A stretch of DNA of 59,312 bases. Source: Thermodesulfobacterium thermophilum DSM 1276 (GTDB taxonomy: Bacteria > Desulfobacterota > Thermodesulfobacteria > Thermodesulfobacteriales > Thermodesulfobacteriaceae). The translations under genes and the position numbers were made by a program. Where the stretch lies: assembly GCF_000421605.1 (NCBI RefSeq), contig NZ_ATXI01000012.1:1-59312 (forward strand). Direction: 5' to 3'. The notes under the pieces are model-generated. The model worked only from the letters and a program-made list of their open reading frames with translations. It was not told the DNA's origin and made no database searches. Below are positions 47,961 through 58,925 of this stretch, piece by piece (the stretch's first letter is position 1; each line of letters begins with the position of its first letter).

Positions 47961-48798
47961 TTAATTTTGACAAAATTCTTTAAGAGGGGCTATTTGCTGA
48001 TGTAAATCAGGATGGTTTTCTAATTTTTTCAATTCTATGCAAGCTTTGGTAGTGTCTCCTTTTTTAAAATAGGCTATTATTAAGTTGTAATGTATTATAG
48101 GCTCATTTTTTAAAGAAAGGGATTTACGAAAAAGGTTTATTGCCTCCTCAAAATCTCCTAATTCGATCAAACAAGCTCCTACGTTGTTCATCACCCAAGG
48201 GTCCTTCTTTTCTTTTAGATAATTTTTGTAATAAAAAATTGCTTTTCGATAATTTCCTTTTTTTCTCTCTTCTTCAGCCATAATTAAAAGGTTATTCAAC
48301 AAATCCTCTTTGGTCAAAAGAAAACCTTCTACAGGTTGTTCTTTATTCGGTTTTTGAGAAAAAGACGAATAGGAAAGGCTTGGAAGACTTGAAGAATAAG
48401 AATTATAGACTTTTTTTTTGAGGTTTGTTCATCATAGAAGATGGTCTATTAGGTTTTCCTGAGGGGTTAGAGGGTATGGGTTTGATCATAGAAGAAGGAT
48501 TTGTGTCTGTCGATAAGGAGTCTGTGTTATTATAGATGTTATTTCTTGGTATTGAAGAAAATTGATTGACAAAAGTATAGTTCTTAGTTTTGTTTAAAGA
48601 AAGAGAAGATTTAATATAATGACTTAAAAAAAGTAGTCCTATTCCTGAAATAACGGTTAATCCTAAGAATCCCAAGACCAAAAACATAGGTCTTATTTTC
48701 AAAAACTGCCTTATTCTTATTAAAGGCTGCCTGTTTAAATCCTCCTTTGGAGTTTCTCTGTCTTTTATTTTTTGTAAAATGTCGTAAAGTTTACTCAT
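47961..48798 (-). CDS. MshN-like TPR pilus-assembly protein, interrupted at an A9 run
   Basis: Two frames make one protein. The first (48798 down) has a cytoplasmic start (MSKLYDILQKIKDRE), a membrane helix (about residues 40-60) and a Ser/Asn/Pro-rich linker. It ends just after PQKKSL because of a run of nine A's (48411-48419 region on the coding strand). With eight A's the frame continues PQKKVYNSYSSSLPS...KPNKEQPVEGFLLTKEDLL and joins the TPR part with no stop. The TPR region has at least three repeats. In MSHA clusters MshN has this architecture and lies beside mshL, as here. The break may be real mutation, phase variation, rescue by transcriptional slippage, or a sequence error. Confidence 0.78.
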
Positions 48799-48801
48799 TT
48801 T

Positions 48802-50388
48802 TTATATTAAGTTTACTTTTATGATTATTACCAGCTCAGTTTTTTGTTTAGAACTCTGTTTGGTTTTAAAAAGGTTTCCTAAAACAGGTACATCCCCTAT
48901 TCCTATAATTTTTTTCTCGTTGGTTATATCTTTTTCAAGAATAAGTCCTCCTAAAACTATTATATCTCCTGGGATTACTTTTATTATAGAGGTAGCTTCT
49001 TGAAGGTTTACTTCCGGTAAAGTTATAGAGGTATCTTGTCCAAAATCTTCTTTTTTTAAAGAAATGATGTCACTTTTTATAGGTACTACGTGAAGAAAAA
49101 TCTCATCATTTTCTGTAAGATAAGGAGTTACAGCTAACAAAACCCCTTCAAAAATAGACGATGTTTCTATGTTAGTTTGGACCTGGGCGGTTTGTTGAGC
49201 TGAAACCAAATTTCTGGTAATTTCTTTTACAAACTCTACAGATTTACCTACACTTATCAAAGCAGGTTGTCCATGGATGACTCTTAAACGAGGGTTTGAA
49301 AGGAGATTTATATTCCCATACTGTTTTAACGCGTTTAAAATCAGGTTGAGATTAGGTGTCCCTCTAAAAGAAAGAGATATGGTGGGTTCGTTATTTCTTG
49401 TGGTTAAACGAGAGGTTAGCTCGTCCAAATGTATCGAATTTTGACCTAAAGGTAAATTAGCGATTTCTAACCAATCAATACCTAGATTATGTTCTTTATT
49501 CAATACTACCTCTATGATTTTTGCCTCAATAACTACTTGTTTTTTATATTTTATTTTTAAGTTTTCTATAAAATTGGCAATCATTTTAAGATGGCTCGAT
49601 CTATCTTTGACGTATAAAGTACCTGTAAGTCTATTAAGGGTATAAAGTCCGTCTTCACTAATTAGATCTTGGAGTGAATTCTCTATCTGGGTATATACAT
49701 CTATATGTTTTTTTTCTACTTGTCCTTTTATTTCGTATTTTCCTTTCAACGCAGAATTACCAGATGAAGAAGTTCCTCCGGTAGAACTGCCTGAAGAAGT
49801 TCCCATCCCTGTTGTTCCACCCAGTACATCTCCTCCTAAATTAAACTCACTTTCCTGAACTAAATGTAAAAAATCTAAATGAAAAGTCCTTTCTTCGAAA
49901 GGAGTAATATAAAGAACTCCTTTTTTGATTTGATAGTGTAAGTCTAAGGATTCAACAACAGCTTCTAAGATGTTTTTTAATGGTTGGTTTTTGAACTGAA
50001 AGGTTATTTTTCTATTTTCCTGAGGAACATATTTATATACTTCAGGAGAAATCACTATGTTAAGACCAGCTTCTTTAGCCAAAAAATAAAGAACGTTGTC
50101 AAAGTTCTCATCTTTAAAGGAAACCGTAAGCATCTTGGTTTCAAGCGGAGAAACTTCTTTATATAACGGGGTTAATACTTTCTGTTTTGAAGATGTTTGC
50201 GAAGAATTAGAAAAATTAAAGGCAGGTTTTTGAGTTTCATTAAAAGAATGAAGTTTTAAAAAATCAGAAGAGTTTTTTTCCACTTCATAGTCTTTAGCCG
50301 CACAACTTACTAAAAAAACAAAGCTAAAAACTAACAGTTTCTCCCAAAAAAACCCTTTTATTTTGTCCTTTAACCTGTAAGTCCACAT
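48802..50388 (-). CDS. mshL: Secretin of the MSHA-like pilus (MshL)
   Basis: This 528-aa secretin would form the outer-membrane pore through which the pilus passes. It has a lipoprotein signal (FVFLVSC, Cys about residue 29), a STN-like N domain (about 95-165), a Gly/Ser-rich loop (about 190-215), an N1-type domain and the secretin core (about 290-528) with NLLSNPRLRVIHGQPALISVG and VPVLGNLFKT. GGAGA before the ATG supports a start 65 bp inside the mshK gene. MshN follows after 3 bp. Confidence 0.92.
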   Translation of the reverse strand: MWTYRLKDKIKGFFWEKLLVFSFVFLVSCAAKDYEVEKNSSDFLKLHSFNETQKPAFNFSNSSQTSSKQKVLTPLYKEVSPLETKMLTVSFKDENFDNVLYFLAKEAGLNIVISPEVYKYVPQENRKITFQFKNQPLKNILEAVVESLDLHYQIKKGVLYITPFEERTFHLDFLHLVQESEFNLGGDVLGGTTGMGTSSGSSTGGTSSSGNSALKGKYEIKGQVEKKHIDVYTQIENSLQDLISEDGLYTLNRLTGTLYVKDRSSHLKMIANFIENLKIKYKKQVVIEAKIIEVVLNKEHNLGIDWLEIANLPLGQNSIHLDELTSRLTTRNNEPTISLSFRGTPNLNLILNALKQYGNINLLSNPRLRVIHGQPALISVGKSVEFVKEITRNLVSAQQTAQVQTNIETSSIFEGVLLAVTPYLTENDEIFLHVVPIKSDIISLKKEDFGQDTSITLPEVNLQEATSIIKVIPGDIIVLGGLILEKDITNEKKIIGIGDVPVLGNLFKTKQSSKQKTELVIIIKVNLI

Positions 50389-50812
50389 AATAGTCTCCTA
50401 TTTTCAAAACCTTTATATCCTTGTTAATCTCACTTTTTTCTGCAAACACTCCTCCGTTTATTACACATTTTTTATTCTTCCCCTCTATATAAATCATATT
50501 TAAAGTCATTTTTGATTTTTCAACAAAAGTATACGAAGACGTATATAAAGACGAAGATTTGGGAAGATCTTGGAATGGAAGTAAAAAAGGATCTTTATTT
50601 ATGGTGTATTTTTCTGTTAATTTAACCGGGGTCAAATAGCGTAGATTATTAAACTCATGGATGACCTCTATATAGGTTGAAGACAAAGTAATTGTACGAT
50701 ATAGGTCTGACTCAAGTTGTTTCTTTGTAGAAAGTAAATAGATTAAAAAGCTCAAAAACAATACTACACAGGGTCCCCAAAAAATTAGATATATCTTGTA
50801 CTTCTCTTTCAT
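50324..50812 (-). CDS. MshK-like inner-membrane pilus protein
   Basis: The 162-aa protein has one N-terminal helix (about residues 8-27) and a periplasmic part. The C-terminal 60 residues (MIYIEGKNKKCVINGGVFAE, then VLKIGDYYVDLQVKGQ) resemble the GspC/PilP-type homology region that links platform and secretin. Position between mshJ- and mshL-like genes supports MshK. It overlaps mshL by 65 bp. Confidence 0.7.
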   Translation of the reverse strand: MKEKYKIYLIFWGPCVVLFLSFLIYLLSTKKQLESDLYRTITLSSTYIEVIHEFNNLRYLTPVKLTEKYTINKDPFLLPFQDLPKSSSLYTSSYTFVEKSKMTLNMIYIEGKNKKCVINGGVFAEKSEINKDIKVLKIGDYYVDLQVKGQNKRVFLGETVSF

Positions 50813-50815
50813 AAC

Positions 50816-51250
50816 TTAATCTGAAATGTATTTTATTTTTTCTCCAGTAATGTTCATTATATAAAAACAATCCTTCAAGGTGGCATTATCTTTTTTTTCA
50901 CAAGAGGAAATAGTAGCTTCATTTATCCTAAACAAGCTTCCCTTCTCAGAGGATAAAGAAGAAAGAATAGAAAGTAAAGAATTAAGATTTTTTATCTCAA
51001 TAGAGACAGATATAGGCATAGTCTGGAGAGCAATAAACTTTTCTGGATTAATCTCAGTCATAAGAAAGTAAACTTGTTGAACTTGAGAGGTTAAAATTTG
51101 TTTGTTTTGTATAAGGGTGTTATATTTTTTTTGATTATTTAATAACCTTCCCAATTGATAACTTAAAAACAGCAAAGAAAATAAGAAAAGCAGTAAGCTC
51201 ACATACCACAAAATAATTTGTTTTTTATAGTTTTTTAACAGCTCTCTCAT
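50816..51250 (-). CDS. MshJ-like (PilO/GspM-type) inner-membrane pilus protein
   Basis: The 144-aa protein has a short cytoplasmic basic start, one helix (about residues 11-31), a coiled-coil stretch (about 35-65), and a small ferredoxin-like periplasmic domain. This is the PilO/GspM arrangement. Its ATG overlaps the stop of the mshI-like gene (ATGA), and it precedes mshK by 3 bp. Confidence 0.68.
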   Translation of the reverse strand: MRELLKNYKKQIILWYVSLLLFLFSLLFLSYQLGRLLNNQKKYNTLIQNKQILTSQVQQVYFLMTEINPEKFIALQTMPISVSIEIKNLNSLLSILSSLSSEKGSLFRINEATISSCEKKDNATLKDCFYIMNITGEKIKYISD

Positions 51251-52561
51251 CTCTTTATAACCGCTTCTAATTTTAAAATGCCCTTATTTTCTTTTCCTGA
51301 AAAGTTAAAGCTACTTTTTTCTGTTTTAAAATGTTTTTCAAAATGAGAAATTAAGTCTTCTACCCTTTTTTGGGCAATCATCAACTCTCCTTTTATTTCA
51401 ACTTCTATTATAATTTTGTTATTTCTTATTGTTACATTTTTTAAAATAAAGTCACTATCCCAGATTTGGGAAAGCCATAGTAAAAATTCATCCAGTCTTA
51501 AAGTAGTTCTTTTTTCTTTTTCTAACTCAAGATAGGTTTTGATTTTTGGAAGCGAAGTTTCTGGTATTCTATAACTAAGTTCGTTGATTATCTTTTTTAC
51601 AGACAAAACTTCAGAATCGATATGTTTTTGTAACTCTAAATTATGTTTATAAAGGAATAGTCCTAATAAAAGGTTAATCCCTGTTAATCCCCAAAAAACA
51701 GGCATTAACCTTTCAACCCAGTTTATTTGAGTTAAAAATAGTTTTTCTGAAAAAGGCAAAAAATTAAAAACAGGGTCTAATACTGTTGCTCCAAAAAATT
51801 CTGGATATTCCATGACTTCAACCGGAAGTTTGGAGTCAAAGTTAATCAAAGGTAAGTTACTTCCTCTTAAAATTTCCTCTAAGTTTACCTGTTCTATCCC
51901 TTTGCCTAAAAAGGCTAATCCTTTTAAGTCTTCCTGAAAAAATCTATACACATAATCTTTCACCATCAAGACATTTTCTAAAATAGTTTGGGAAGAAATT
52001 CCAAAAAATTCATCTATTACTGTAAACCTTACATAAAGAAGAGCTTGTTTAGAAGCTACTATATACCAAATTCTGGTTTTATCAAAAATAACCAGTAATA
52101 CAGGGGAACCCATCTTATCTGAAAAAAGAATCCTTTGAAAACAACAGAAAATACAAAGAACTTTATGGGTAATTAATTCTACTTTTGCATGAATATTTTT
52201 TAACTTTTCCAAATAATTATTAATATCTTTTTCTTCTATACCAAAAACAAAGACTTTTGAAGTAGTTTCTAAGGTTTCGACAACCTTATAGACCACCTTG
52301 GGAGTAGTTAAAAAAACCCCACTCTCTTTAACTCGATTCTCTGCTTGTACTTTAATAAACTCAGATACTTTACCTGGAATGTCTAAAAGGTCTGCAAAAA
52401 AAAACCTGAGAATCCAACACCAAATAAACTTTTTGTTTTTTCAGTTGAATAAGCTCTATTTCAGGAAAAAACTCAAAATGTTTAGTTTTTTTGCTAAAAT
52501 AAAATCCTGCAAACAAATCTTCTTTTACAGGTGTTACAACCCACACATTTTTTCTACTCAT
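51247..52561 (-). CDS. MshI-like (PilM/PilN-type) pilus protein, interrupted at a T9 run
   Basis: The start at 52561 overlaps the end of mshM (ATGA). The frame reads MSRKNVWVVTPVKEDLFAGF and runs to LVLDSQVFF, where nine T's (52404-52396) shift it into an early stop. With eight T's it continues ADLLDIPGKVSEFIKVQ...VVYKVVETLE into the 350-aa remainder. The remainder has an actin-like cytoplasmic region, a membrane helix (around the LMPVFWGLTGINLLLGLFLY segment) and a PilN-like periplasmic end. MshI proteins have this PilM-plus-PilN architecture. As written, only an internal GTG start could yield the long part, without its N-terminus. Confidence 0.75.
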
Positions 52562-53448
52562 TTAATCCTTATCCCTAAAAAAGTTCTTGTTTTTATAGGG
52601 AAAACTTCATCTGGGAAAGAGGCTCTGGCTATCTTAAGATGTTTTTTCTTGATTTTTTGAGACCTTTCTGCATAGGCTACCAGTAAGGTTCTATCCATAA
52701 GCTTATTTATAAGCCGTGGTATACCTTGAGTCATTTTATATAAAAGTTTTTCAAAACCCCTTTCAAAAATTATCACAGGATGTCCTGCCTTAGCTAAGCG
52801 AAATCTGATGTACTCTCCGGTTTCTTCTAAGTTAAAGGGTGTTAAATTTTCCCATATGGTAATCCTCTGAGATAGTTGATATAGCTTATCATTCCTTAGT
52901 TTATCAGTTAATAAGGGTTGTCCAACCAAAAAAAACTGTATTAACTTGTTCTTTTCTGTCTCAAAATTACTTAAAAGTCTAAGTTCTTCAAGGGTTTCTA
53001 TGGGAAGATTTTGGGCTTCGTCTATGATGATAATCAAAGTTTTACCCTGTTGTTGTAATTCTTTCAGGGCTTTATATAATAAGTTCAACGTTGTTTCTTT
53101 AGAAAGAGAAAAATCCTCCTCAAGACAAAGGTTTAATGCTCGACAAAGGGCTGATATGATTTCTTGAGGCGAAAGAGTAGGGGTAAGGAGAAAAACTTTT
53201 TGGTAGTCTTCAGGTAAAAAATTTAAAAGAAGTTTAATGATTAAAGTTTTACCAAGACCTGGGGCTCCAGTAAGTACTATAAAACCCTCTTTTTTAAAAA
53301 TCCCATATTTTAAGATTTCTATAATTTTCATATGGTTAGACGAAGGGAAAAAATAAGCTGGGTCAGGGGTAAGAGAAAAAGGAGGCTCTTTAAGCCCAAA
53401 AAAGGTTAAATAGTTAAAGATTTCTTCTTCCTTAGTACCAAAGTTCAT
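52558..53448 (-). CDS. mshM: AAA ATPase MshM (ExeA family)
   Basis: The 296-aa cytoplasmic ATPase is related to ExeA, which helps secretin assembly. It begins with FFGLKEPPFSLTPDPAYFFPS, the family's usual opening, followed by Walker A GAPGLGKTLIIK (about residues 60-71), Walker B TLIIIIDEAQNLP, and arginine-finger region LSQRITIW. It lies in the order (57-aa)-mshM-mshI. Confidence 0.9.
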   Translation of the reverse strand: MNFGTKEEEIFNYLTFFGLKEPPFSLTPDPAYFFPSSNHMKIIEILKYGIFKKEGFIVLTGAPGLGKTLIIKLLLNFLPEDYQKVFLLTPTLSPQEIISALCRALNLCLEEDFSLSKETTLNLLYKALKELQQQGKTLIIIIDEAQNLPIETLEELRLLSNFETEKNKLIQFFLVGQPLLTDKLRNDKLYQLSQRITIWENLTPFNLEETGEYIRFRLAKAGHPVIIFERGFEKLLYKMTQGIPRLINKLMDRTLLVAYAERSQKIKKKHLKIARASFPDEVFPIKTRTFLGIRIK

Positions 53449-53629: not shown

Positions 53630-54829
53630 CTAAAGCTTCCCAAGTTGAGAAATAAGTTCATATATAGGGCCTATAAGTGCGATGATTATGATCAAAAAAA
53701 CTATACCAGCTATACCGATAATAAGAGGCTCAAGAACCTTACTTATAGTTTGAATTAAGTTTTGTATCTGGGTAAAATAATAGTCTGCAAGTATTTTCAT
53801 TTGTTCAGGAAGTCTTCCTGTTTTTTCACCCACATCAACTACTCTAATATCAAAGGGATTAAAAATCTTTTCCTGTTTTAAAGCTTCACTTAAAGATATT
53901 CCAGCAGTTATTTTTTCCTTTACTCTTAAAACTGTTTGTTTCGTAAGCTGGGTCCTTAAAGAATTATACATTAAATCAAAACTTCTTAAAATATCTATCC
54001 CTGTTTCTAAAAGTAAAGAAAAATATTCAAAAAAGAAAGCCAGAAAATTGGATCTTTTTACAAACCCTATTATAGGAATCTTAAGCAAACATTTTTCGAT
54101 AAATATTTGGGTTTTATGGTATTTATACAGTACTATTGCCATCATAGTTAACAACACAGATATAGATAAAATCAAAAGATAGTGCCTTTGAAAAATTTCT
54201 ACAACTTTCATTAGGATAATGGTAGTATAAGGCAGTTTAATCTGCATTTGTTTAAAAATATCTAAAATTTTAGGTAATACATAGAGTAACCAGAAAAGAA
54301 AAGCTGAAGAAATAGAAAATAAGACAAATACAGGATAAATCATAGCTCTTTTGGTCTGAGAAATGATTTCGTCTACCCTATAGAGATGTTTAGCTGCATC
54401 CTCTAAGGTTTTTCCAAGTCTTCCTGTCTCTTCTCCTATTTTAACCAAAAAAATTACTACAGGAGGAAAGATACGTGTTTTACTTATTGCTTCTGAAAGA
54501 GGAGTTCCTGTTAACATATCAGCTATGATTTGAGCTATTTTTCTTTTTAAAAGAGGATTAACCACCGTTTCTTGCAAATCTTTAAGAGCAGAAAGAACAG
54601 GGACACCAGCAGAGATTAAAAAAGCTAAATTATGACAAAACTCAGCCAAATCTTTCCTTTTTATCCTTTTAAAGGCAAACTTTCCACTTAAAAAGGTTGT
54701 TCTATATTTTAAAAGGATTAGCCCTTCTTTAGAAATATAATTGAAAAAATCTTCTAAATTTAAAGCCTCGACCTCTCCTTTTACCTTTAACCCTTCCTGG
54801 TTCAAAGCCTGATATTTATATACTGGCAT
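53630..54829 (-). CDS. mshG: Inner-membrane platform protein MshG (GspF/PilC family)
   Basis: The 399-aa protein has the two repeated T2SSF domains (about residues 65-190 and 265-390), each with a cytoplasmic helical bundle and membrane helices. Signatures: FCHNLAFLISAGVPVLSAL, VKIGEETGRLGKTLEDAA, and FFEYFSLLLETGIDILRSF with VVDVGEKTGRLPEQMK. It organises pilin insertion above the MshE ATPase. Its ATG shares one base with the mshE stop (TAATG). Confidence 0.92.
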   Translation of the reverse strand: MPVYKYQALNQEGLKVKGEVEALNLEDFFNYISKEGLILLKYRTTFLSGKFAFKRIKRKDLAEFCHNLAFLISAGVPVLSALKDLQETVVNPLLKRKIAQIIADMLTGTPLSEAISKTRIFPPVVIFLVKIGEETGRLGKTLEDAAKHLYRVDEIISQTKRAMIYPVFVLFSISSAFLFWLLYVLPKILDIFKQMQIKLPYTTIILMKVVEIFQRHYLLILSISVLLTMMAIVLYKYHKTQIFIEKCLLKIPIIGFVKRSNFLAFFFEYFSLLLETGIDILRSFDLMYNSLRTQLTKQTVLRVKEKITAGISLSEALKQEKIFNPFDIRVVDVGEKTGRLPEQMKILADYYFTQIQNLIQTISKVLEPLIIGIAGIVFLIIIIALIGPIYELISQLGKL

Positions 54830-56469
54830 TAACCAACCACCCTTCTTATTTCTTCAACCGTGGTTATCCCTTGTAAAACCTTGTTTTTGGCATCTTCTCG
54901 TAACGTCTTAATATTTTTTGCCTTCATAAGTTCTAAAAATTCTGGAAAAGTAGCATCTTTAGAAAGAAGTTTAATAAAATCTTCATCTATATACACAATT
55001 TCTGTTATCACCGTTCTTCCAAGATATCCTTTAAACCTACAGGCTTCACACCCTTTACCCTTATAATAAATACCTTCTTTAGGTAGCTCATAATAATCGA
55101 GTAGTTTAGGGTGTGGGAGATATTCTTCTTTACAGTAAGGACAGACTTTTCTAACTAATCTTTGCCCTAAAAGACCTACTAAGGTTGAGGCCAATAAGTC
55201 TGAGGAGATGTTTAGGTCCCTCAAACGAAAAATCGTAGAAAGGGCATTGTTGGTATGTAAGGTAGAAAGGAAAAGATGACCTGTGAGAGCAGCCCTTACT
55301 GCCATCTGAGCAGTTTCTTCATCTCTTATCTCCCCTACCAAGATTACATCAGGGTCTTGTCTTAAAAAGTGTCTTATAGCTTTAGCAAAATTATAACCAA
55401 TGTCCTCGTGTACCTGGGTCTGCCTTATTAAAGGTAACCCGTATTCTATGGGATCTTCTGCCGTAAGTACGTTTTTCTCAAGAAGATTAAGTGTCCTAAG
55501 GCAAGCAAACAAGGTAGTTGTCTTACCAGAACCTGTAGGACCTGTAACCAAAAACATCCCATAAGGAGAGGACATTATCGTTTTAATAAGTTCAACCTGA
55601 TCCTCAGAAAATCCTAAATATGCAAGATGCTGGACATAAGCTCCTGAAGGTAAAAACCTTAAAACGAAATTTTCTCCAAAAGGAGTTCTTACACTCGAAA
55701 TCCTTATATCAAAAGTTTCCCCTAAAAAAGAAAACTGCATTTTTCCATCTTGAGGAAGCCTTGATTCTGCAATGTCCATCAAACCCTTTATTTTAATTAC
55801 GTTTATCAACTTACCGTATACAGCTTTAGGGAAAACTATCAAGGGTTCAAGCACCCCATCTATCCTAACATAAATACGAACACTTCTTTCTGTAGGGCTG
55901 ATATGTAGGTCTGTAGCCCTTTTCATTATACTTAAGATCAAAATTTTCTCTAAAAGTTCTTCCGCATTAAAATCTGCTTGAGGATTAACTTTTAATTTTT
56001 CAACTATAGTAGAAATCTGAGCTTCAACCGGATTTTCTAAAAAATAATAAAATTTTTCTATAGCTTTATTAATCTGTGCAGAAGAAGCAACAACCGGAGA
56101 GACTTTTAATCCTGAAACTCTTGATGCTGCTTCGATTAATTGATAGTTAAAAGGGTCATATATAGCCAATTCAAGGGCTCTGTCTGCGGTTATCCTTATC
56201 GGAAGAACCCCATATTTTCTTGCAAAAGAAGGTGAAATACTATTTAAAGCCTCTTTAGAAGGATTAGTCTGAGATAGATCTACAAAGGGTAGTCGAGATT
56301 GCTTAGCTAAAACTATAGCAATTTCAAGGTCTGTTACCAGACCGGTTCTTACTAAAACCTCTCCTAATTTCTCTCCTGTAGCTTTTTGTTCAAGTAAAGC
56401 AAACTGTATGTACTCTTCAGTGATGAACCCTTCCTCTTTAAGAAGCTGCCCTATAGGCTTTCTTTCCAT
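54829..56469 (-). CDS. mshE: Pilus extension ATPase MshE (GspE/PilB family)
   Basis: The 546-aa hexameric ATPase powers pilus assembly. The N-terminal MshEN-type region has two tandem motif copies (IGQLLKEEGFITEEYIQFAL and KLGEVLVRTGLVTDLEIAIV), the kind that binds cyclic di-GMP in Vibrio MshE, although the first copy lacks the leading Arg. The core has Walker A GPTGSGKTTTLFA, Asp box AEDPIEYGL, Walker B and His box (LFLSTLHTNNA), plus the zinc motif CPYC...CEACRFKGYLG. AGGAAGG supports the start. Confidence 0.93.
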   Translation of the reverse strand: MERKPIGQLLKEEGFITEEYIQFALLEQKATGEKLGEVLVRTGLVTDLEIAIVLAKQSRLPFVDLSQTNPSKEALNSISPSFARKYGVLPIRITADRALELAIYDPFNYQLIEAASRVSGLKVSPVVASSAQINKAIEKFYYFLENPVEAQISTIVEKLKVNPQADFNAEELLEKILILSIMKRATDLHISPTERSVRIYVRIDGVLEPLIVFPKAVYGKLINVIKIKGLMDIAESRLPQDGKMQFSFLGETFDIRISSVRTPFGENFVLRFLPSGAYVQHLAYLGFSEDQVELIKTIMSSPYGMFLVTGPTGSGKTTTLFACLRTLNLLEKNVLTAEDPIEYGLPLIRQTQVHEDIGYNFAKAIRHFLRQDPDVILVGEIRDEETAQMAVRAALTGHLFLSTLHTNNALSTIFRLRDLNISSDLLASTLVGLLGQRLVRKVCPYCKEEYLPHPKLLDYYELPKEGIYYKGKGCEACRFKGYLGRTVITEIVYIDEDFIKLLSKDATFPEFLELMKAKNIKTLREDAKNKVLQGITTVEEIRRVVG

Positions 56470-56483
56470 ACCTTCCTGAACCT

Positions 56484-58262
56484 TTAATAAAATCCTATCC
56501 CAAAATTGCTAATTTCAACAGTTTGAGTGCTACCTCCGGTTGCCTGCGTAAAACCAAACTTAACCGAACTCATAGAAGTAGGTAATTCAAAACAATGAGA
56601 AATTGTGGGGGTTGACGAGTAATCACGGGTTAAATCATTACAGTTAATGCAGTCAACCCATGCTTTGATAAGGGCATAGTTTTGAGGATTGGAACCACAA
56701 TTATTACAGTTTGGATTACACTTTGTTTGGATTTCTATCCTTACCGAGTGTTTCACACCATCCTCTAACCAGGTAGGATTGCTGGTATAACGACACCCTG
56801 AATCTTGATTATTACATACAGGGTTTGTACCCATCGGAGTAGAACCACCGTGCGTCACACTACCTCTTTTAACGATGGCAATATGATTATAAGTCCCTGG
56901 ATCGTTCCTTCCTCCATTCGGATAGACATCAAATTCAACCGCCACAGAATCATAGGACAAACCATCAAAACCTAACCTCTCTCCAGTACCCCCACAGGCA
57001 GTTGTAGGCATACTATCAGCAACCACAGCAAAAGTAAAACCATCTGCGTAATTTCTTGAATCAGAGGAGGTATCAGGGTTTAGGAACCTAAACTCAAAGT
57101 AAGTCCTCATCGTTTTGCCATCAAGCTGATAGGAAGAAGGAAACCAAAAACAACCATAAGATGAGTATGTATTACCTCCCAATTGTAAAACATTACCAAC
57201 TACATTAACTGCATTTTGGTTGTTTTCCGTTTGTAAAAATTGATTGATGTTATTATCGAAAGACACCATAGCTCCTTGAGGTCCTCCTGTAGAAGAAGTT
57301 GACGGATTTATCGTAAGCACCAAGGCCTTTTGAGCGATGTTATCGTTACCTCCGTTAGGGTCTTGGTTATCTCTTACAAAGATGGTTAAAAAGAAACTTC
57401 CCTGTTGAGAAGGGGATCCTGTTAAAGTTAAAACATCAGCTTGTCCCCAGGATGTTTCATCCAGACTCAAACAGTCGTTTGAAATAACATTAGGATCTAT
57501 TGTAATCCCTGAAGGTATCGTCCCCTGCACACACCATCTATACTTCCCGTTTCCTACTAAAAAAGGAACACCTCCTTGGGCATAAACTGTAGCATTGTAT
57601 TGAGAACCAACATACCCATAAGGAAGTTCGTTGTTCAAAATCTTAAGTTGAGATCCTTGACAACCTATCTTTATTCTCAACTCTTCTAAAGTAATCCATT
57701 TGACTACATCGTCATATTCTTCTGGTCTTGCCAAATCGTATGGATAACCATCTATGTTAGGGGTCCCCTGAGGATAAACTCTATAACATGTTTTACCTGA
57801 AGGACAAGACGTAGCATTAGAACCAGTTTGGACATTATAATTTGGACCACCACTTACCACTATAAAAGCTACATTTTCAATTCGATTAGTACAGTTAGGG
57901 TCTGTACATACGATTAAATCAGTAGTTTTTTTCCCACATATTCCTTCTGCTGGGTTGTTAGGATTACTGGTTAAGTTTAGGTCAACAAAATAAACTAGTG
58001 GTTTATTCCACGGGTCATAAGGATTTCTTACTATCTGGTTGAACTCTGTAGAAAGAGGAAGTCTGTTTTCACGAGCAGCAAAACCTATCACAGATTCCAC
58101 AGCTGCATTAACAATCTCTTTGGCTTCTGTAAGTTTAGCTCTTTTAGTAAGAACACCAACTAAACTTGCACCTAACCCAATAAGAAATCCCAAGATTATC
58201 AACACGATAGCAATTTCTATAAGAGTAAAACCTTTTGTATTCTTTATCTCAAAGCTTTTCAT
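56484..58262 (-). CDS. Large minor pilin: prepilin stalk fused to Ig-like and legume-lectin-like domains
   Basis: The 592-aa protein starts as a type IV prepilin: cleavage after Gly11 (KG/FTLIEIAIVLIIL) with Glu at +5. Residues about 40-205 form an unusual cysteine-rich pilin head. Residues about 210-325 look like a putative Ig-type domain (LPYGYVGSQYNATVYAQGG, SGITIDP, GSFFLTIFVRD). Residues about 335-590 look like an L-type lectin: FRFLNPDTS, YADGFTFAVV, LGFDGLSYDSVAVEFDVYPN, YNHIAIVKRG. The Asp and Asn at these places match Ca/Mn and sugar-binding positions. About 20 cysteines suggest disulfides. No ribosome binding site precedes its ATG, so expression may be low, as suits a tip adhesin. 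Confidence 0.8.
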   Translation of the reverse strand: MKSFEIKNTKGFTLIEIAIVLIILGFLIGLGASLVGVLTKRAKLTEAKEIVNAAVESVIGFAARENRLPLSTEFNQIVRNPYDPWNKPLVYFVDLNLTSNPNNPAEGICGKKTTDLIVCTDPNCTNRIENVAFIVVSGGPNYNVQTGSNATSCPSGKTCYRVYPQGTPNIDGYPYDLARPEEYDDVVKWITLEELRIKIGCQGSQLKILNNELPYGYVGSQYNATVYAQGGVPFLVGNGKYRWCVQGTIPSGITIDPNVISNDCLSLDETSWGQADVLTLTGSPSQQGSFFLTIFVRDNQDPNGGNDNIAQKALVLTINPSTSSTGGPQGAMVSFDNNINQFLQTENNQNAVNVVGNVLQLGGNTYSSYGCFWFPSSYQLDGKTMRTYFEFRFLNPDTSSDSRNYADGFTFAVVADSMPTTACGGTGERLGFDGLSYDSVAVEFDVYPNGGRNDPGTYNHIAIVKRGSVTHGGSTPMGTNPVCNNQDSGCRYTSNPTWLEDGVKHSVRIEIQTKCNPNCNNCGSNPQNYALIKAWVDCINCNDLTRDYSSTPTISHCFELPTSMSSVKFGFTQATGGSTQTVEISNFGIGFY

Positions 58263-58310: not shown

Positions 58311-58925
58311 TTAAAAATTCATCCAAATATCTAAATATCCAGAAGAAGGATATTCATTATCATTGCATGTAGCCCCAGCATATCTTGCTATTGATCCAGT
58401 GGTACATTTACCGTCATCCATAGCTCTATCAATGGCTGCTGCTGCTTGAGCTTCTAAATTTCTAAGGGTAATCCATAAACCTGACCTTGTTTGTTCACCA
58501 ACCGTATAGGTTCCGGTAAACATATCGATAGGGCCACCAAAAACATGCTTTGGCACCATAGAGGTTGGATTACTATCCGTAGGGTCACCAGAAATGATGT
58601 TAGCATACTTTAAATGTCTCCATAGATAGCATGACTCTTCATTATTATTATCACAATAACCTCCCTCTACCCAACCATTACCATTCCCATCCGGTGCACC
58701 TGTAAATTTGTTTGAAGCTGTAGGATCATCGCCTGGATAATATCCATACTTGTCATAATAGGTATAAAAAGCTGCGGTAAGCTCCTTAAGTTGGCTTTGA
58801 ATCCTTTTAACCTTAGCATTGTATATCAACTCCTGTCCTTTAAATATGGCACCTAAGATGATACCAATTATCACAAGCACAATCGCCAATTCAACCAAAG
58901 TAAACCCTCGCACCTTAAGCCTCAT
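58311..58925 (-). CDS. Type IV pilin (MshA-like), probable major pilin
   Basis: The 204-aa prepilin has a 7-residue leader (MRLKVRG) cleaved before FTLVELAIVLVIIGIILGAI, with Glu at +5. The long alpha-1 helix leads into a globular head with four or more cysteines and glycine-rich loops (GAPDGNGNGWVEGGYC). A very strong ribosome binding site (AGGAGGTGA) and its first place in the operon suggest high expression, hence major pilin. Similarity to MshA is by context. Confidence 0.88.
   Translation of the reverse strand: MRLKVRGFTLVELAIVLVIIGIILGAIFKGQELIYNAKVKRIQSQLKELTAAFYTYYDKYGYYPGDDPTASNKFTGAPDGNGNGWVEGGYCDNNNEESCYLWRHLKYANIISGDPTDSNPTSMVPKHVFGGPIDMFTGTYTVGEQTRSGLWITLRNLEAQAAAAIDRAMDDGKCTTGSIARYAGATCNDNEYPSSGYLDIWMNF

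Follow-up and report, generated by a model that had tools for sequence, protein, structure and literature searches.

A modular type IV pilin that ends in a legume-type lectin domain is encoded in a pilus gene cluster of the thermophilic sulfate reducer Thermodesulfobacterium thermophilum DSM 1276. This protein is likely to be part of an MSHA-like pilus, on which it would display a calcium-dependent sugar-binding lectin, most likely at the tip. With such a lectin, judging from the sequence data, the thin, retractable fiber could probably hold on to particular sugars displayed by surfaces or other cells. The gene (58262 to 56484, minus strand) is located in the 59,312-nucleotide stretch of DNA that was analyzed, referred to below as the window, which represents one entire contig (C12) of the 1.79-Mb genome. 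An earlier reading of this DNA (the original prediction) had proposed a pilin fused to an Ig-like domain and a lectin-like domain. That observation has been confirmed as real and well beyond chance, and its interpretation, a sugar-binding head on a pilus, is supported by the data described below. The features of the protein and its gene cluster are listed in Table 1.

Table 1. Positions of the lectin-bearing pilin, its parts, and the surrounding pilus genes in the window
Feature	Coordinates	Strand	Evidence
Lectin-bearing modular type IV pilin, 592 aa	56484..58262	-	ORF, orthologs, dN/dS
Leader peptide, residues 1-11 (MKSFEIKNTKG)	58230..58262	-	Pfam N_methyl and TIGR02532 above cut-offs
Pilin domain, residues 12-200, long N-terminal helix	57663..58229	-	AlphaFold model; homology to free-standing pilins
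Ig-like domain, residues ~202-320	57303..57659	-	He_PIG in aligned region of homologs; model
Ser/Gly-rich linker, residues ~321-328	57279..57302	-	Sequence
L-type (legume-type) lectin domain, residues ~329-592	56487..57278	-	Profile versus PDB, Pfam in homologs, structure comparison
D407 (A-D-G-F motif), counterpart of the sugar-binding Asp in legume lectins	57042..57044	-	Alignment
Predicted metal-site segment E443-D445-Y447-N449-D454-H460	56883..56936	-	Alignment to legume lectins; conservation
GFT(x)2TGG...Q segment, residues 570-580	56523..56555	-	Conserved in 16 domains
Companion pilin, 204 aa, upstream neighbor	58311..58925	-	N_methyl 5.5e-7
Extension ATPase, MshE/PilB type, c-di-GMP-binding MshEN motif	54829..56469	-	T2SSE, MshEN, NF053729
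Platform protein, PilC/GspF/MshG type	53630..54829	-	T2SSF 2.3e-43
AAA ATPase, MshM/ExeA-like	52558..53448	-	AAA_22 5.1e-26; named by context
MshI/PilM-like protein, frame shorter than in T. hveragerdense	51247..52296	-	ORF, L021 comparison; role from gene order
MshJ/PilN-like small membrane protein	50816..51250	-	Gene order and length only
MshK/PilO-like small membrane protein	50324..50812	-	Gene order and length only
Secretin, closest to MshL	48802..50388	-	Pfam Secretin 2.8e-30; TIGR02519 best model
TPR protein gene, two reading frames here	47961..48798	-	Intact 278 aa in L021

The gene and its pilin stem

The ORF starts with ATG and does not overlap the neighboring genes. The interval had been given correctly in the original prediction; the coding strand is the minus one, the plus strand across it being rich in stops. 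Orthologs are encoded in three other Thermodesulfobacterium genomes (93, 71, and 52% identity), and the nearest named relative is found in Thermodesulfobacterium hveragerdense DSM 12571 (92% identity over the whole protein). The dN/dS ratio is ~0.1 to 0.25 in every domain, i.e., pilin, Ig-like, and lectin, which points to purifying selection acting on all of them. Diversifying selection is ruled out by these values. Two homologs of the pilin stem, L009 (genome G017) and L015 (genome G032), each contain one stop within the matched stretch (TAG and TGA, respectively); these could be pseudogenes, assembly errors, or cases of alignment overrun.

The N terminus of the protein, KG followed by FTLIEIAIVLIILG, conforms to the canonical class III prepilin signal. 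The leader ends at G11, cleavage is predicted before F12 (KG/FTLIE), and E16 corresponds to Glu5 of the mature pilin. This region scores above the cut-offs of both Pfam N_methyl (E value of 2.9e-5; 23.9 bits with a cut-off of 21.2) and TIGR02532 (19.8 with a cut-off of 16.3) and is the sole Pfam match of the lectin-pilin itself. Thus, the predicted normal prepilin start is indeed present. A prepilin peptidase gene is found elsewhere in the genome (PF01478, E value of 2.5e-18), and, as far as the sequence can tell, nothing speaks against pilin-peptidase processing at this canonical site.

In the AlphaFold model, a helix formed by residues 9 to 65 is part of a pilin-like domain that extends to residue ~200 (pLDDT mostly 55 to 83 for residues 10 to 200). 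The position of this border is independently marked by homologous bare pilins of the same order, L037 (200 aa) and L038 (220 aa), which stop near residue 200. With a prepilin signal and a predicted long-helix pilin domain to which a further module, of a kind not restricted to pili, has been added, the protein can be classified as a modular pilin.

Residues ~202 to 320 are modeled as a β domain, with pLDDT values mostly between 54 and 85 in the strands. A search of PDB sequences with this part alone as the query produced no match. Its assignment as an Ig-like domain, in agreement with the original prediction, comes from homologs with the same scaffold, in which the Pfam domain He_PIG (putative Ig domain) is recognized (residues 215 to 303 of L030, E value of 3.4e-7; also L033 and L042), and from the Foldseek search with the full-length model, which had many Ig-like folds among its matches.

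The C-terminal lectin domain and its predicted binding site

Legume-type lectins are best known from peas and peanuts. The one in the window was matched neither in a direct Pfam scan of the domain nor in a PF18483 scan across the phylum, and the single lectin-pilin sequence gave only a hint in phmmer (E value of 0.014 to a Spatholobus lectin). A profile built from six homologous domains, when searched against PDB sequences, matched 83 of them at E values of up to 1, and the best 60 of the 83 are all legume-type lectins, with 7elv_E at the top (E value of 9.8e-9) and legume isolectins at ~4e-5. In the six homologous domains themselves, Pfam recognized PF18483 in two (8.9e-11) and PF00139 in one (7.8e-5). 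Since the lectin is recognized by a homolog-derived profile and missed by single-sequence Pfam searches, lectin pilins are probably undercounted; domains of this kind that are invisible to Pfam in single sequences can be recovered with a small family profile.

Two AlphaFold models of the lectin were obtained from different alignments, one for the full-length protein and one for the lectin alone (an alignment of four rows); rows from the whole-genome loci were excluded from both alignments. The confidence for the lectin is ~45 pLDDT in both models, so the side-chain geometry of the metal and sugar site is not reliably modeled. For each model, the best 50 VIA-align rows consist entirely of L-type lectins and L-type-like domains of bacterial origin, at Z scores of 10.2 to 11.8 and rmsd values of 3.3 to 4.3 over 180 to 196 residues. 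The top Foldseek match of the lectin-only model is peanut lectin (E value of 1e-7), accompanied by legume and bacterial L-type lectins, including SraP and YwfG. The structure prediction and comparison with legume lectins that had been suggested along with the original prediction thus returned a predicted fold of the legume-lectin type rather than an unrelated one. Based on its sequence relationship and its modeled β-sandwich (jelly-roll) fold, the C-terminal domain can be assigned to the L-type (legume-type) lectins. When viral contigs were scanned using the lectin alignment, no relatives were detected, which leaves a phage origin of this domain unsupported.

The segment SVAVEFDVYPNGGRNDPGTYNHIAI carries E443, D445, Y447, N449, D454, and H460, arranged as in the metal site of legume lectins apart from an extra residue ahead of the His. 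Among 16 domains from many families, E443 is conserved in all 16, D445 and D454 are conserved in 15 each, and N449, H460, and D407 are conserved in 14 each, so the conserved acidic and Asn positions noticed originally are real. Conservation of these site residues suggests that the domain binds metal and sugar. The GFT(x)2TGG...Q segment aligns weakly to GFTGGTGG of 7elv_E and presumably occupies the position of the GFSA.TG loop in legume lectins. A cluster of Cys residues, CNPNCNNC (residues 515 to 522; 56697 to 56720, minus strand), is inserted in the lectin; it is kept in several relatives but is missing from L026.

The ConA-like superfamily contains enzymes as well, and an ulvan lyase appears among the weaker structural matches. 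However, it is hardly credible that the domain is an enzyme module of this superfamily, whether a glycoside hydrolase or a lyase, instead of a lectin: the sequence profile and the best structural matches all lead to L-type lectins, and the conserved residues fall on the metal and sugar site of that family. Certain L-type lectin domains of staphylococci have been proposed to act as protein-binding or self-associating heads (a cell-cell zipper, as in biofilms), with sugar binding not their main function, and the A domains of SasG and Aap, which are bacterial L-type lectin-like adhesins, are indeed among the structural matches. Furthermore, L063, which has the same stem as the window's protein and is one of the 16 domains, retains little of the metal site. 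Such a role is nevertheless unlikely here, as the retention of metal and sugar residues in 14 to 16 of the 16 domains from distant genomes would be unexpected if the scaffold alone mattered.

The pilus gene cluster and its likely mode of action

The 204-aa companion is the probable major pilin, and its gene adjoins the scaffold gene in most relatives that retain the cluster. The ATPase exceeds the cut-offs for both MshEN (PF05157; 70.8 bits versus 23.1) and NF053729 (55.5 bits versus 38). Of all secretin models, the best for the secretin is TIGR02519 (MshL), with 241.6 bits, just below the cut-off of 250.2. The cluster (48.0 to 58.9 kb) has only two pilin genes and contains no genes for MshB, MshC, MshD, MshO, MshP, or MshQ; because these other minor pilins and MshQ are missing, the machine is referred to as MSHA-like rather than MSHA. 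The gene upstream of the cluster in the T. hveragerdense locus (L021) is unrelated. This genome also has a second set of type IV pilus genes, for small as well as minor pilins, a PilB-like ATPase, and two PilT-family ATPases (G000:C1, ~27 kb; C8, 74 to 76 kb; C3, 90 kb; C4, 38 to 41 kb).

Compared to T. hveragerdense, the frames of the MshI-like gene (52296 to 52560) and the TPR gene (48317 to 48403), both on the minus strand, are broken, in each case by a one-base difference in the length of a homopolymer run. These breaks may be sequencing errors or real. If they are real, the locus could be decaying and the pilus not made in DSM 1276, but there is only a small chance of that: homopolymer runs are frequent sites of sequencing error, the genes for the lectin-pilin, ATPase, platform protein, and secretin are intact, and dN/dS between the window and L021 is low.

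The pilin signals also resemble those of GspG and GspH, the GspE and GspF models fit about as well as those of PilB and PilC, and the presence of just two pilin genes would suit a secretion-type pseudopilus that forms no long filament, in which the lectin would help to hold or export a glycosylated substrate. This arrangement appears quite improbable given that the secretin is nearest to MshL and not to GspD, that the ATPase has the MshE c-di-GMP motif, that two PilT-family ATPases scoring above the cut-off are encoded elsewhere in the genome, and that lectins are found on several different pilin types in the phylum.

On an MSHA-like pilus, the pilin domain would be cleaved and then polymerized by the type IV pilus machine, with the Ig-like domain as a spacer and the C-terminal L-type lectin as the sugar binder, acting through its calcium site; the second metal of this site would probably be manganese or another transition metal. 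The lectin-pilin would be a minor, not the major, pilin, a low-copy subunit that most probably sits at the filament tip, as a cap or a decoration, although it could be more than a tip subunit, because the cluster encodes no other minor pilins. At high c-di-GMP levels, the MshE-type ATPase would be expected to extend the pilus, the lectin would encounter a surface or partner cell bearing polysaccharide or glycoprotein, and PilT-driven retraction would draw the cell in.

Related proteins and known systems

The lectin domain was detected in 14 of the 395 genomes of the phylum. Four of them carry it on the same pilin stem as the window, and six have it fused to another pilin-like N terminus (PilX-like, assigned by eye and by pattern, as Pfam gave no name). 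In two genomes (L075 and L076), a secreted L-type lectin is encoded directly downstream of a four-prepilin minor pilin operon, and in the other two, the lectin is found in large secreted proteins with no pilins nearby. Thus, 12 of the 14 genomes have the lectin either in a pilin fusion or next to minor-pilin genes; this repeated association and the operon context both favor the originally predicted placement on a pilus. The fourth (PilX/GspK-like) minor-pilin slot is thought to be at the filament tip. Where the gene order is readable (L075, L076, L078, and L079), the lectin is found in or directly after this slot, which supports its display at the tip in these four cases; the same position can be suggested for the window's lectin only by analogy with them. 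The secreted lectins of L075 and L076 may be noncovalent tip adhesins. At L022 (1399 to 7666), from a deltaproteobacterial/Myxococcota MAG, three modular pilins are encoded in tandem, one of 363 aa without the lectin and two, of 644 and 921 aa, with it.

In the same family and order, the pilin stem, often with the same partner pilin and cluster, is also found with other C termini: Ig arrays with a Gly-rich stretch and a small module (L030, L033, and L035), a short module (L028 and L039), or nothing added (L037 and L038). On the pilin-stem tree, the lectin label requires three changes, versus 7.1 for shuffled labels. The lectin-pilin of a different family (L054/L074, genome G143) is nearer to that of the window than is the one from a congener (L026, genome G007), whereas the neighboring ATPase shows the reverse order (55% versus 60%), which hints at lateral transfer of the lectin-pilin. 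An ~80-aa module with the pattern YRVWN..G...L..G.C....pGq..vY....C.g....i.Y..Av..D... recurs as the terminal part of modular pilins and, in one case, of a secreted lectin. Its members, grouped by eye, include the C termini of L030, L033, L035, L042, L022 (the 921-aa ORF), L057, and L023, with shorter versions in L028 and L039; no Pfam name was found for it.

A broader proposal, put forward here tentatively and more doubtful than not, is that Thermodesulfobacteriota have a swappable-tip pilus, in which a conserved stem, followed in many members by an Ig-like spacer, and a c-di-GMP-controlled MSHA-like cluster would be combined with interchangeable heads (a legume-type lectin, Ig arrays, or a small Cys-containing module that has no name) or with no head at all. 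The lectin head would pick a specific partner by its glycans, in Thermodesulfobacterium, for example, the glycosylated archaeal surfaces in syntrophic consortia. One stem with different heads in close relatives would constitute a natural series for studying pilus specificity through genome comparison. Some members of the genus inhabit bacterial-archaeal consortia (PMC10322722); what holds such partners together could be a glycan-binding pilus head, a candidate that lends itself to testing.

The window's lectin shares with legume and other L-type lectins (PF00139 and PF18483; bacterial SraP, SasG, and YwfG) the predicted fold and the E-x-D-x-Y-x-N-x4-D and A-D-G motifs. It differs from them in the spacing of the second Asp and the His, which is one residue longer, in the Cys-rich insertion (C515, C519, and C522), and in being attached to a pilin, whereas those lectins are secreted or anchored to the cell wall. 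With the MSHA pilus of Vibrio cholerae, for which MshQ is the putative adhesin (PMC7096442), the cluster shares the MshE-type c-di-GMP ATPase, and its secretin comes closest to MshL, at a score just short of the model cut-off; MshQ, MshB, MshC, MshD, MshO, and MshP are absent from the cluster, and its adhesin would be pilin fused.

A survey of modular type IV pilins described 264 architectures, including some with the carbohydrate-binding modules PF13385 and PA14 (PMC8179133). The protein in the window similarly has an effector module grafted onto a pilin, but it would escape that survey, which was based on domain signatures, because it has no Pfam lectin signature. The closest parallel in domain order is PilC of Streptococcus sanguinis, a modular minor pilin with pilin, Ig, and ConA-like lectin domains, demonstrated glycan binding, and a tip model (PMC9934059): both proteins combine a class III signal and a pilin domain with an Ig-like domain and a C-terminal ConA-like lectin. 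However, the lectin of PilC superposes on galectin-7 (PMC9934059), whereas that of the window is legume type with a conserved metal site, and PilC is absent from the best 60 of the 83 PDB sequences matched by the lectin profile. The pilin moiety of PilC is also unusually short, compared to ~190 aa in the window's protein, and PilC belongs to a Gram-positive type IV pilus rather than to an MSHA-like pilus of a diderm, the host here being a thermophilic sulfate reducer. Among the openly licensed papers searched, none was found to describe a type IV pilin carrying a legume-type lectin. Modular lectin pilins as such have been published (PMC9934059, PMC8179133), so the idea is less new than it looked; what appears to be new is a legume-type lectin on an MSHA-like pilus, which, if correct, would add legume-type lectins to the known pilus adhesins.
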